A stretch of DNA of 64,000 bases from Allocoprobacillus halotolerans (GTDB taxonomy: Bacteria > Bacillota_I > Bacilli_A > Erysipelotrichales > Coprobacillaceae): positions 2,833,608-2,897,607 of the forward strand of contig NZ_CP101620.1 of assembly GCF_024399475.1 (NCBI RefSeq). The letters are read 5' to 3'. Position numbers and translations under genes: made by a program. Numbering within the stretch: the first letter of the stretch is position 1; each line of letters starts with the position of its first letter. This document shows positions 7,078 to 50,913 of this stretch, piece after piece. The notes beneath the pieces were generated by a model. The model saw only the letters and a list, made by a program, of their open reading frames with translations, did not search any database and was not told the DNA's origin.

Positions 7078-7265
7078 AAAAAAAGCCGTTCCATTAAAGG
7101 AACGACTGATATCGCGGTACCATCCTTATTCATATTCATTATGAATACACACTTTTGAGATAACGCCTTTTGGCGGGATAGTCTACTTTTCTTTTCTCCT
7201 ATCCGGTTCATTGAGTGTTCCATATCATTCCCATTTCTTTTGCTTACACCATCCAAAAGTCGCTT
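7078..7265 (-). promoter_or_regulatory. T-box leader of asnS
   Basis: The minus-strand leader carries the T-box bulge GGATGGTACCGCGA and a terminator GUCGUUCC-UUUAAU-GGAACGGC with a T run directly before asnS. Uncharged tRNA pairs with the specifier codon and the T-box bulge and prevents termination. The likely specifier is AAC (Asn) at 7217-7219 in the GGAACAC segment, placed about 25 nt after the Stem I apical region as in the other two T-boxes here. The specifier assignment is inferred. Confidence 0.88.
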
Positions 7266-7344
7266 TTAAACTTATAAATCATATGTTCTCAAATCATTAC
7301 CTGTATATTTATTATTAACATCTTTTTCACAAAATTTCAATACT

Positions 7345-13346: not shown

Positions 13347-13360
13347 AAACTCTCATTATT

Positions 13361-13443
13361 TGCACTCTCTACGCTGGCATTACCCAGTTCAGATCATAAG
13401 GGATAAGGTTTCAACCTTTCTCAGCAAAATGCACCCCTGGCTC
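13361..13443 (-). promoter_or_regulatory. TPP riboswitch
   Basis: The minus-strand RNA shows the conserved THI-box elements in order: GGGGTGC, CTGAGA, GATCTGAACTGGGTAATGCC and AGCGTAGAGA. It precedes thiT and an intrinsic terminator, so it should shut off thiamine uptake when TPP is abundant. Confidence 0.97.
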
Positions 13444-13556
13444 ATATTCATTATATTCTTTTTTAGAAAAAATACAAATATTTTTTACAAAACATTTTTT
13501 CCTAGTTTTTTTACAAATAAATGCTATAATAAAAGGGAATCAAGGAGGATAAGAAA

Positions 13557-20909: not shown

Positions 20910-21109
20910 AATAACCCTCCTATTATATATATACGCATATTTTTCTCATTTTTCTTTTTTTTAATCAAATTTTTTTAATTTTCTTTATTTTTTCATTTCA
21001 ACTACGATTATATACCTTTTTAACATCATTATAGAATTTTTAAAATATGAAAACTATTATTCATTATTTCATGTATAATAGCCTTATTGATGAAGTATAA
21101 ATAAAACAA

Positions 21110-21255
21110 GCGCCTGGACTTTTTGAAGTTGACGAGGACCAGATTTATCGAAAGATTCGGCGGATGATCTGGAGGTATGATGCTACCTGAACAATGAGCA
21201 AAAATAATGAGTGATCATTAAACAAATATCATTAGGCATCACTTCATCATATAAT
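21110..21255 (+). ncRNA. glmS self-cleaving ribozyme
   Basis: The core is unmistakable: AGCGCCTGGACTT around the cleavage site, AAGTTGACGAGGA, TTTATCGAAAGATTCGGCGG, followed by P3/P4-like pairing near 21170-21250. Glucosamine-6-phosphate triggers self-cleavage, which destabilises the glmS mRNA. A TATAAT box at 21074-21079 can provide the promoter. The 3' limit is approximate. Confidence 0.95.
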
Positions 21256-25398: not shown

Positions 25399-25424
25399 AT
25401 ATGATATATAAAACAAAAAGCCAT

Positions 25425-25655
25425 GATGTAACAGAGTAAAAATTTCTGAGACATAAGAGATATGATGGTTGGTGCAAATCATACGTTGAGAAATTTTGAA
25501 TACAGTACGGAGCTGTTATTCTGATAAGGGATAATCGGGGTCATAACGTTATTTATGAAAAGTTATTCAACTTATAAAGGTTATAATTGTGAGATTATAA
25601 CAAATTGAGGTGGTACCGCGTTCACTCGCCCTCTTGGGACGGGTTTTTTTGTTTT
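25425..25655 (+). promoter_or_regulatory. T-box leader, probably tyrosine-specific
   Basis: The leader contains the T-box bulge GAGGTGGTACCGCG (about 25606-25620) and a terminator with a T run. Stem I can be drawn: TAACAG pairs with CTGTTA at its base, and AAAATTTCT with AGAAATTTT above. The specifier side of the internal loop reads GAATACAGTACGG; the first TAC (25501-25503) is the best specifier candidate, a Tyr codon. It controls the ABC importer downstream. The codon choice is an inference. Confidence 0.85.
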
Positions 25656-41660: not shown

Positions 41661-41880
41661 AAAAAAAGCCATTCCTCAAAAGGAACGACTATCATCGCGG
41701 TACCATCCTCATTCATAATGAATAATCATTATGCCCTTTGATCGTTAACGCCGATTTACGTTGATGTTTGCATCACTCTTAGAAGGTAGCTTTCTTTATA
41801 AGCCTCTAGGAATTTACACCAACCATTCCCTCTCTTAAAGATGACTTGTAAATACTTTTCTTCTGCAACGATTTGACTTT
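41661..41880 (-). promoter_or_regulatory. T-box leader of alaS
   Basis: The minus-strand RNA contains the T-box GAGGATGGTACCGCGATGA and a terminator GTCGTTCC-TTTTGA-GGAATGGC with seven T. In Stem I, about 25 nt after the apical GGTTGGTGTAAA, the sequence GAAAGCTACC offers GCT (41788-41790), an Ala codon, as specifier. The 5' boundary is approximate. Confidence 0.9.
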
Positions 41881-48202: not shown

Positions 48203-49122
48203 TTATTGCATTCTTGACATTGGAAGCATTGCAGCTCCAATAGCACCACAGTCTTCTAATTCTGTTTCAAGTAATGGGATATGTCCTCTCATTCCTACAT
48301 GGATTTTTGCGTTAAACTGTTCGTTTAATTTATCAAAGAAATATTTCTTTGATTTCATAACACCTCCACCTACAATAAAGCAGTGTGGATCAACAGTATG
48401 TGCAATATTAGCGAACAATGTTGCAAGTTCACTGATACATTCATCAACAATACCTTGTGCTTTGATATTACCTTCATCAGCTAATCTAAACACATCACCA
48501 GCATGTTTAACCATATCATCACCTAAAAGTTTTTCCCTTTACGTGTAATAGCTGTACCACTTGTTTCACCTTCGGCAGCACCAGGATTTAAACCACCAAA
48601 TTTATAACCATTATTTTTAACGATAATATTTCCAACTTCACCAGCATGTCCTCTACCACCAGATACAAGTTTTCCATCCACGATAAATGCTCCACCAATA
48701 CCTGTTGAAATTGTCACATAATAACAAGTTGGTTTTCCTTTTCCTGCTCCAAGCAAGGCTTCAGCTAAACCAGCTACATTAGCATCATTATCAATAAAAA
48801 CTGGTAAATTAAATCTTGTTGATAATTTTTCGCAAATTGGATAGTTTTCAAAACCAGGTAAGTTAGTAGCCATAATCATGACACCATTGGCTGTATCAAC
48901 TGGACCAGGTACACCAATACCTACACCTTGAACATTTTCAATACCACCACAAACAGTGTAATCAAGACTTTCAATTTGCCTTATAATTTTTGAACAAACA
49001 TAATCAGGTCCATTTTCTCTTTCAGTTGCATCTTTCACTTCACTATAAGATTGTCCATTTTCATCGACCAATAGAGTACGAACGTTTGTTCCACCTAAAT
49101 CAATCCCAATATAATATTTCAT
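48203..49122 (-). CDS. ROK family glucokinase (one frameshift)
   Basis: A sugar kinase of about 306 residues. The phosphate loop is IGIDLGGTNVRTLLVDENG, the catalytic Asp is in VFIDNDANVAGLAEALLGAGKG, then ISTGIGGAFIVDGKL. A RGHAGEVGN segment holds the ROK zinc/sugar-binding His, but the usual downstream CxCGxxGC cluster is replaced by NNGYKFGGLNPGAAEG, so this member seems to lack the zinc site. The C-terminal part (VIVGGG-like CFIVGGGVMKS) follows after one added base at five T (48530-48534). Glucose is the likely substrate by family. Confidence 0.9.
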
Positions 49123-49187: not shown

Positions 49188-50154
49188 TTATTGAAACAAT
49201 ATTTTTTTCAATCGTTCTAGATTTTGAGGTAATGGCGATTGTATCACAACATCTTGTAAATATTTTAATGAACCAATAGGTTTTACAAATTGAATTTGAT
49301 ACGCATGTAAAAATTGATTTTGAAAATGATATGTCTTTTTCAAATAACGATTTAATTCAAAATCTCCATATTTACTATCACCAATGATAGGATGTCCAAC
49401 ACTAGACAAATGTAAACGAATTTGATGTGTACGACCCGTAATAATTTTGACTTTTAATAAAGAATACTTTTGATTTGATTGAATATTTTCAACAATCGTA
49501 TGCATTTTTAATGCCCCTCAGTATTTGAGGATACCATTCTTGCAAGCGAACGATCACTATCCTTTTTCATATATCCTATCAATTCAACGCTAGTCATATA
49601 ACCTTTACAAATCGTTAAATATGTTTTGTCAATACAATGACGTTTCTTCATCATTTCATTTAAATCTTGTAAAGCTCGCATTGTTTTTCCAAAAATCACA
49701 ATTCCACTTGTATTTCGATCTAATCGATGAACTGGTCCTGGTGTAAATCCTAATGTTTGTTGTGGATCATATTCTCCTTTTTGATACAAATAAGTTAAAA
49801 CCTGATTAGATAAAGTATTCATATCTTCATTGATATCTTCATGAACTAGTAATCCTACTGGTTTATTGACAACCAAAATATTTTGGTCTTCATATAAAAC
49901 ATCAAAAGTGATTGCTAAATCATAAATACTTTGTGGCTTTGTCAGTTCTTGAAAGCGATCTTCATATAAAAACAATTCAACTTTATCACCTTTTTTAAAA
50001 TATAATTTTCCTTTACTCTCACACCATTGACTTTGACATCCTTTTTTCTTAGCATTTTATAAATCAATTGCGATGGTGCTTGACACAATAATTTTTTGAG
50101 ATATTTATCAATACGCTGATTTTCATAATTTTCATCTATAATTAAAGTTTTCAT
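49188..50154 (-). CDS. RluA/RluD family pseudouridine synthase (two frameshifts)
   Basis: It makes pseudouridine in rRNA or tRNA. An N-terminal S4 RNA-binding domain (ENQRIDKYLKKLLCQAPSQLIYKMLRKKDVKVNG) is followed by the catalytic domain with the Asp in PGPVHRLDRNTSGIVIFGKT, and the late motif GRTHQIRLHLSSVGHPIIGDSKYG. Three frames are joined by one added base at six T (49991-49996; ILKKGDKVELFLYEDRF) and one at four C (49514-49517; NTEGALKMHTIVEN), about 322 residues. Target site unknown. Confidence 0.92.
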
Positions 50155-50216
50155 TTCATCACCGTTTTTATTCTATCAAAATTTCATAAAAAAATATACA
50201 TTTTTATTTGAAAGCC

Positions 50217-50244
50217 TTTACAACTTATAAAACTCTGTTATAAT
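50217..50244 (+). promoter_or_regulatory. Promoter of the candidate small RNA
   Basis: TTTACA (50217-50222), a 16-bp spacer and TATAAT (50239-50244) preceded by TGT (extended -10). The predicted start is about 50251. Confidence 0.7.
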
Positions 50245-50250
50245 TAGATT

Positions 50251-50348
50251 TGTTAAGTGGTTCTCACTTAAACATACCCCCTATTATCACCCTAACGTGT
50301 AAATAATAGAGATAGAAGAAAGTATGCTCCCCGCATACTTTCTTTTTT
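50251..50348 (+). ncRNA. Candidate C-rich three-hairpin small RNA
   Basis: Between a strong promoter and a terminator lies about 98 nt without an ORF. Hairpin 1 is TTAAGTG-GTTCT-CACTTAA (50253-50271). A single-stranded ACATACCCCC follows. Hairpin 2 is CTATTATCAC...GTG..ATAATAG with loop CCTAAC (50281-50309). Hairpin 3 is AGAAAGTATGC-TCCCC-GCATACTTTCT plus six T (50317-50348). The C-rich unpaired stretches (ACCCCC, UCCCC) could pair with Shine-Dalgarno sequences, as the C-rich motifs of staphylococcal RsaE-type RNAs do. I recognise no known family. Confidence 0.6.
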
Positions 50349-50382
50349 CTTTTGTGCTATAATAATGTTGAGGTGAAAAGTT

Positions 50383-50913
50383 GTGGAAAAAGAGATTCAA
50401 AGAACTATCATTTATGATGGTAAAATTATGCAAGTAACAAGGGAAGAAGTTGAACTTGAAGATGGTCAACATGCCTATCGTGAAGTTGTCTATCATCATG
50501 GTGGTGTCTGTATTTTAGCCATTAAAAATCATCAAATCATTCTTGTTAAACAATTCCGTTATCCTAATCGTATTCAAACAATAGAAGTACCGGCTGGAAA
50601 ATTAGAAGCTGATGAAGATCCACGTGATTGTGCCTTTCGTGAATTAGAAGAAGAAACAAACAATCGTGCCAAGGACATGCAATTTGTAATGAAAGTTCTT
50701 CCTTCACCAGGTTACACAAGTGAGTGGCTTTATCTTTATGAAGCGATTGATTTTGAAGAAGTTGAAGATGCCTTGGATGGGGATGAAGATGAATTTATTG
50801 ATATTGTGAAATTAGATATTGATGATGCTTATCAAAAAGTTTTAAGTGGTGAGATTGTTGATGCCAAAACAGTGATTGCGATTATGTATGCATATCAAAA
50901 AGAACATCAGTAA
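50383..50913 (+). CDS. nudF: NUDIX hydrolase, ADP-ribose pyrophosphatase type
   Basis: It hydrolyses ADP-ribose to AMP and ribose-5-phosphate. The NUDIX box G-x5-E-x7-R-E-L-x-E-E is present as GKLEADEDPRDCAFRELEEETNN, preceded by VKQFRYPNRIQTIEVPAG and followed by PSPGYTSEWLYLYEAID, as in YqkG/NudF. 176 residues. GTG at 50383 after GAGGTGAAAAGTT. An extended -10 promoter (TGCTATAAT) lies at 50355-50363, just after the small RNA terminator. Confidence 0.93.
   Translation: MEKEIQRTIIYDGKIMQVTREEVELEDGQHAYREVVYHHGGVCILAIKNHQIILVKQFRYPNRIQTIEVPAGKLEADEDPRDCAFRELEEETNNRAKDMQFVMKVLPSPGYTSEWLYLYEAIDFEEVEDALDGDEDEFIDIVKLDIDDAYQKVLSGEIVDAKTVIAIMYAYQKEHQ

Follow-up and report, generated by a model that had tools for sequence, protein, structure and literature searches.

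A conserved C-rich small RNA of the Coprobacillaceae that probably switches off amino-acid-synthesis genes through their ribosome-binding sites

A small RNA gene between rluD-like and nudix genes

We analysed a window of 64,000 nucleotides from the closed, 2.93 Mb genome of Allocoprobacillus halotolerans. On the forward strand of the window lies a gene for a small RNA (sRNA) of ~98 nt, extending from a predicted transcription start at 50251 to the end of an intrinsic terminator at 50348, which we regard as almost certainly genuine given its fold and its orthologues. It is flanked by a divergent rluD-like gene (49188–50154, minus strand) and by a downstream nudix hydrolase gene (50383–50913, forward strand) whose matches to NCBIfam NudE/AdpP-like models fall below the curated cut-offs. 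The sRNA promoter consists of a −35 box, TTTACA (50217–50222), a 16-nt spacer, and an extended −10 box, TG-T-TATAAT (50236–50244; TG at 50236–50237, TATAAT at 50239–50244), with a major-base fraction of 0.94. This promoter matches at 11 of 12 bases and ranks best among the 19 promoter-like sites in 3.5 kb, a region in which the number of such sites is not above that in shuffled sequence.

The RNA is predicted to form three hairpins, all on the forward strand. Hairpin 1 (50251–50274) appears both in the fold and in helix pairing over the alignment; hairpin 2 (50281–50309, comprising helices 2 and 3 of the fold) carries the loop CCUAAC; and the terminator (50314–50348) has 11 pairs and is closed by six T at 50343–50348. 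A conserved segment at 50272–50293 contains two C-rich regions, ACCCCC (region 1, 50276–50281), which sits between hairpins 1 and 2, and CACCCU (region 2, 50288–50293). A third C-rich region occupies the terminator loop, which is UCCCC here and UCCCCC or ACCCCC in most relatives. The minimum free energy of the fold is −28.5 kcal/mol, compared with −9.98 ± 2.58 kcal/mol for dinucleotide shuffles (z = −7.18; none of 200 shuffles as stable). No open reading frame fits within the locus, and the length of the C-runs differs by single bases among relatives, indicating that the locus is not coding. A preliminary description made from the sequence alone had proposed the extended −10 promoter, the length of about 98 nt with three hairpins, the six-T terminator, the lack of a reading frame and the ACCCCC, UCCCC and CCUAAC motifs in their respective places, and each of these features was found as described. 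The locus is a free-standing sRNA gene with an intrinsic terminator and a promoter of its own, from which it is predicted to be transcribed.

The sRNA terminator lies on the same strand as the nudix gene and ends 35 nt before its start in this window, an arrangement that would suit a 5′ leader or attenuator of nudix. However, the sRNA remains upstream of rluD in genome G006, where nudix is several kilobases away, in G026, where nudix was not found, and in G020 and G028, where another gene intervenes. Because the sRNA is not tied to the gene downstream, and is kept even where nudix has moved or is missing, we rejected a leader or attenuator function on the basis of synteny. Moreover, nudix has a −10 box of its own, read as TATAAT at 50358–50363 in the window and as a TATAAT-like sequence in the genomes inspected, and no alternative antiterminator hairpin was seen. 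We therefore consider it very improbable that this RNA is part of the nudix transcript.

The rluD-like gene is broken into three frames in this assembly and is a single open frame in relatives. A ROK-family kinase gene (48203–49122, minus strand) is also frameshifted here, and amt, asnA and hisZ, elsewhere in the genome, likewise look shortened. This pattern points to homopolymer errors in the assembly, a possible reason also for the terminator loop having four C in this genome and five in nearly all relatives. Separately, Rfam models identified three T-box leaders, a glmS ribozyme and a TPP riboswitch in the window (41678–41877, minus strand; 25414–25636, forward; 7095–7306, minus; 21098–21243, forward; 13348–13448, minus).

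The −35 box of the sRNA gene is contained in a conserved element, TGAAAGCCTTTACA (50209–50222, forward strand). Across 26 sequences, the mean major-base fraction of this element is 0.95, compared with 0.58 in the adjoining spacer. The promoter is probably regulated, and the element is a possible binding site for a regulator, judging from its conservation. The corresponding pattern, TGWAANCCTTTACA, is found at a single place in the genome, and on this basis we rejected a shared operator regulon. We also discounted additional copies of TGWAANCCTTTACA in G010 and G036, which lie beside an RpiR-like gene and beside an oxidoreductase promoter (genes named by eye) and are not associated with an sRNA. 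The element fits the CcpA cre consensus except at the central CG, where it has CC in every relative aligned; it does not resemble ResD/SrrA or Rex sites, and inspection of the promoter by eye revealed no Fur-like box.

Conservation of the RNA and its exposed C-rich regions

An exact motif search recovered the same motif from Thomasclavelia, Faecalibacillus, Candidatus Stoquefichus and Beduini. We relied on a DNA search of 60 relatives, the closest of which include Massilimicrobiota, that located the conserved sRNA core in 26 genomes including the window's own; these 26 genomes were used to build a covariance model, R1. At E ≤ 0.01, R1 detects the sRNA in 34 of 43 genomes of the family. Four further genomes (G012, G020, G028 and G007) have a diverged or damaged copy in the same place, recognised by synteny or by a second model, R2, that was built using G012, G021, G029 and G023 themselves. 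Orthologues are therefore present in 38 of the 43 genomes, distributed over the Coprobacillaceae genera Massilimicrobiota, Thomasclavelia, Faecalibacillus, Stoquefichus and Beduini, and they lie upstream of rluD wherever rluD is in reach. Outside the Coprobacillaceae, R1 had no match among 395 sampled genomes of the class. We did not accept as orthologues the weak R2 matches in the sister family, which are other C-rich loci or chance, or an R1 match in G138 (E = 0.004), which is a different sequence that is likewise C-rich.

Individual genomes depart from the common pattern. In G007, the sRNA copy is truncated and immediately followed by a transposase gene, a natural disruption indicating that some lineages can do without the RNA. 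The model search of family genomes detected no sRNA in G019, and G008 likewise counts as having lost it. In G031, a decayed second copy that has lost its C-runs (L063, 1552–1646) lies downstream of an intact one.

Over the alignment of 26 sequences, 97.4% of cells pair in the consensus structure, two-sided changes occur in 12 of 24 pairs (3.9 in shuffles), and the covariation score is 0.252 (0.143 in shuffles), figures that lean towards the structure since it was derived by RNAalifold from the same sequences. Shifting the partners by one column reduced pairing to 35–43%. Helix 1 is 98.7% paired, with two-sided changes in three of its six pairs, and the terminator has two-sided changes in seven of 11 pairs; helices 2 and 3 are 98% and 92% paired and nearly invariant. 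Hairpins 1 and 3 are thus strongly supported by covariation, and the near-invariant hairpin 2 only weakly. The stems and C-rich loops, on whose retention the preliminary description had made its reading depend, are kept in close and middle-distance relatives. In the six most distant orthologues (G012, G020, G021, G023, G028 and G029), that expectation was borne out for the C-runs and failed for hairpin 2: the promoter element, the C-rich segment and a terminator with a C-rich loop are retained, and hairpin 2 is not kept in the same form.

Both CAUACCCCCUAUUAUCACCC and the terminator loop with its C-rich region hardly vary and are predicted to be unpaired. The segment CATACCCCCTATTATCACCC has a major-base fraction of 0.96, above that of the surrounding stems (0.71–0.88). 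In region 1, conservation of the UAUU and AUA flanks is about equal to that of the C-run. All three C-runs are predicted to be largely unpaired in the 29 species scored, with mean unpaired probabilities of ~0.6–1.0 for region 1 and 0.64–0.99 for region 2. DNA flanking the sRNA drifts, with values of 0.52–0.71 (0.71 in the linker, 0.52 downstream). A promoter and a terminator that adjoin by chance, with no functional RNA between them, would account for neither the family-wide conservation with covariation nor the drift of the surrounding DNA; this reading was already disfavoured by the conservation, and we regard it as scarcely credible.

Candidate targets and a proposed mode of action

We sought targets by pattern search and in selected genome stretches. 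The sRNA core ACCCCCUAUU is complementary to AAUAGGGGGU, and AGGGGG followed by ATG at a distance of 3–9 nt occurs 55 times in the genome, compared with 18 times for the reversed pattern. Among the 37 AGGGGG sites that precede an open reading frame of at least 45 codons, 11 belong to genes for amino-acid synthesis, amino-acid transport or ammonium uptake (argD, asnA, amt, ilvC, leuC, ilvB, hisZ, ilvE, a histidinol phosphatase gene, livF and livH). By comparison, only asd falls into these classes among 32 AGGAGG genes taken from the first 1.3 Mb (Fisher p = 0.003); because the classes were assigned after the list had been seen, we treat this enrichment as a lead and not as a blind test.

The clearest candidate is ilvC. 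A GGGGG ribosome site is present at ilvC in 29 of 30 family genomes, at leuC in 26 of 30 and at amt in 20 of 26. Being relatives of one another, the 30 ilvC sequences do not amount to 30 independent events. At ilvC, the mean longest complement to the sRNA core is 8.27 nt, compared with 6.25 nt when the flanks are shuffled (reached in 1 of 200 shuffles), and in eight genomes there is a perfect 10-mer complement, AATAGGGGGT. The complementarity excess is weak for amt (23 of 200 shuffles reach it), and leuC has none beyond the G-run itself (115 of 200). In the amt sequence of this genome, two C-rich regions are predicted to pair at once (−22.6 kcal/mol). G-rich ribosome sites such as those of ilvC and amt are plausible targets for the trans-acting regulator envisaged in the preliminary description. 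Genome-wide, raw counts of AGGAGG (642) far exceed those of AGGGGG (55), which makes the retention of GGGGG at ilvC unusual. GGGGG pairs with the usual anti-Shine-Dalgarno sequence through a G-U wobble, suggesting that something beyond ribosome affinity may hold it in place.

We propose that transcription would start at the sRNA's own promoter, which is probably regulated, and stop at its intrinsic terminator. The RNA would then offer three stretches rich in C: ACCCCCUAUU, which lies ahead of hairpin 2 and runs into it; UCACCCU, within that hairpin; and UCCCC(C), in the loop of the terminator. All three would pair in trans with G-rich Shine-Dalgarno sequences and block translation initiation of the target mRNAs, ilvC first, followed by ilvB, leuC, ilvE, argD, asnA, his genes and amt. 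With amino-acid synthesis and ammonium uptake as targets, the sRNA would lower biosynthesis when its promoter is on. In this model the sRNA probably switches off amino-acid-synthesis genes through their ribosome-binding sites. Action in trans through C-rich pairing is likely. That amino-acid and nitrogen genes are the main targets has, in our estimate, an even chance of being correct. The combined model, in which an RNA made from its own promoter uses its C-runs to block G-rich sites in trans, with amino-acid and ammonium genes as its best-supported targets, is one we moderately favour.

An RNA of this kind could instead act mainly on other mRNAs, for example those of redox, fermentation or iron-sparing functions, with GGGGG existing for another reason. 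The main targets of RoxS and FsrA lie in central metabolism and among iron enzymes, and the AGGGGG genes outside the amino-acid classes include pflB, pncB and glgD. Genome G019 has AGGGGG at ilvC and amt despite the lack of a detected sRNA, which speaks for this alternative and against the proposed targets. Two further observations weigh against the proposed targets: the AGGGGG excess is about equal in genomes with and without the sRNA, and, in the genome of the window, pairing is no better for amino-acid genes than for the remaining AGGGGG genes. The bias of AGGGGG genes towards amino-acid functions relative to AGGAGG genes and the extended ilvC complement argue against other mRNAs as the principal targets, and we judge that possibility to be rather unlikely. 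A second alternative is that the sRNA serves as a sponge or protein ligand, its C-runs sequestering G-rich RNAs or a protein that binds RNA. The conservation of three separate C-runs would be consistent with such a role, and B. subtilis RosA provides the opposite case, a G-rich sponge for C-rich sRNAs; however, a plain C-run binder would not need the conserved UAUU and AUA flanks of region 1, and we consider titration improbable.

The genomes contain further C-rich, sRNA-like loci. One in this genome (L161, 1126–1212; G000:C1:1565125–1565211), with others in L162, L163, L164, L165 and L064, has GACCCCUCUCCCUAU in a hairpin loop and UUUCCCC in the terminator loop; its conservation extends over the genus, where its neighbour is a NusG-domain-II-like gene (named by eye). 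It is present as two tandem copies in G004 and had no Rfam match where tested. Another, in Thomasclavelia-group genomes (L166–L170), carries CUUCCCCGCU, CCUCCCCGA and UUCCCCCG, lies between dus-like and lipoprotein-like genes (named by eye), and likewise had no Rfam match where tested. In the sister family f2, loci L172, L173 and L175 are C-rich and sRNA-like, with a common UCUAUCCC(C)UUA and a UCCCC-type terminator loop, and are possibly the counterpart of the sRNA described here. These additional loci could read the proposed target sites together with it or be the RNAs to which those targets belong, a point that counts against the model.

We tentatively raise the idea, on which we place less than even confidence, of a family-wide post-transcriptional regulon in which the unusual GGGGG ribosome site on amino-acid and nitrogen genes is an address for at least one C-rich sRNA. 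Such an address would be weaker for the ribosome, with G-U replacing A-U, and a perfect match for C-rich sRNAs; the rluD-adjacent sRNA would be its reader kept across the Coprobacillaceae, and further C-rich sRNAs may share it. An sRNA whose stems covary, whose seed is fixed and for which concrete targets are predicted offers an entry to post-transcriptional control in this family and, if the link to ilvC and amt is true, would be tied to the supply of amino acids and ammonium in common commensals of the gut.

Relation to known C-rich small RNAs

The locus matched no Rfam family at the gathering score, in agreement with the earlier impression that it resembles no family that could be named. 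At a relaxed threshold, there were four weak, unrelated, chance-level matches (up to E = 5), far below the cut-offs and without RsaE among them. The preliminary description had also drawn a link to RsaE/RoxS, which holds for the way of working and fails for family membership: the RsaE covariance model (RF01820, gathering score 79 bits) misses the locus at E ≤ 10, and the same model gave a match above its cut-off in a B. subtilis control. Our literature search returned no report of this RNA, of sRNAs in Thomasclavelia, or of any small RNA from this gut Firmicutes family. The comparative data favour the original reading of a standalone, trans-acting C-rich sRNA outside the named families, and we conclude that it is a new sRNA family of a known kind, the C-rich trans-acting sRNAs of Firmicutes. 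It shares with these RNAs a standalone promoter, stem-loops, an intrinsic terminator and the lack of an open reading frame, together with an unpaired C-rich motif that is complementary in silico to the ribosome sites of ilvC, amt and other AGGGGG genes.

RoxS/RsaE (Rfam RF01820), of Bacillus and Staphylococcus, is a standalone sRNA of ~100 nt whose C-rich regions pair with ribosome sites; it acts on metabolism, and Hfq was not needed for a tested target. The RNA described here is similarly standalone, of about 100 nt and preceded by a conserved promoter region, and has several exposed C-rich regions, three of them conserved and predicted to be largely unpaired. By contrast, its neighbours are rluD and nudix, it is confined to another Firmicutes family, and its promoter element does not indicate Rex or ResD, the regulators of RoxS. 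FsrA of B. subtilis, which is controlled by Fur, also has C-rich regions proposed to pair with ribosome sites, and its reported targets include leuABCD and gltAB (PMC8464778). FsrA works with small Fbp proteins; the sRNA of the Coprobacillaceae differs from it in having no Fur-like promoter box recognisable by eye and no credible match in Rfam. In S. aureus, the Rsa sRNAs and RNAIII target translation initiation signals through unpaired UCCC in conserved hairpin loops (PMC3861533). The present RNA resembles them in its exposed C-rich motifs, which would be aimed at ribosome sites, and differs from them in sequence and architecture, its conserved unit being ACCCCCUAUUAUCACCC.
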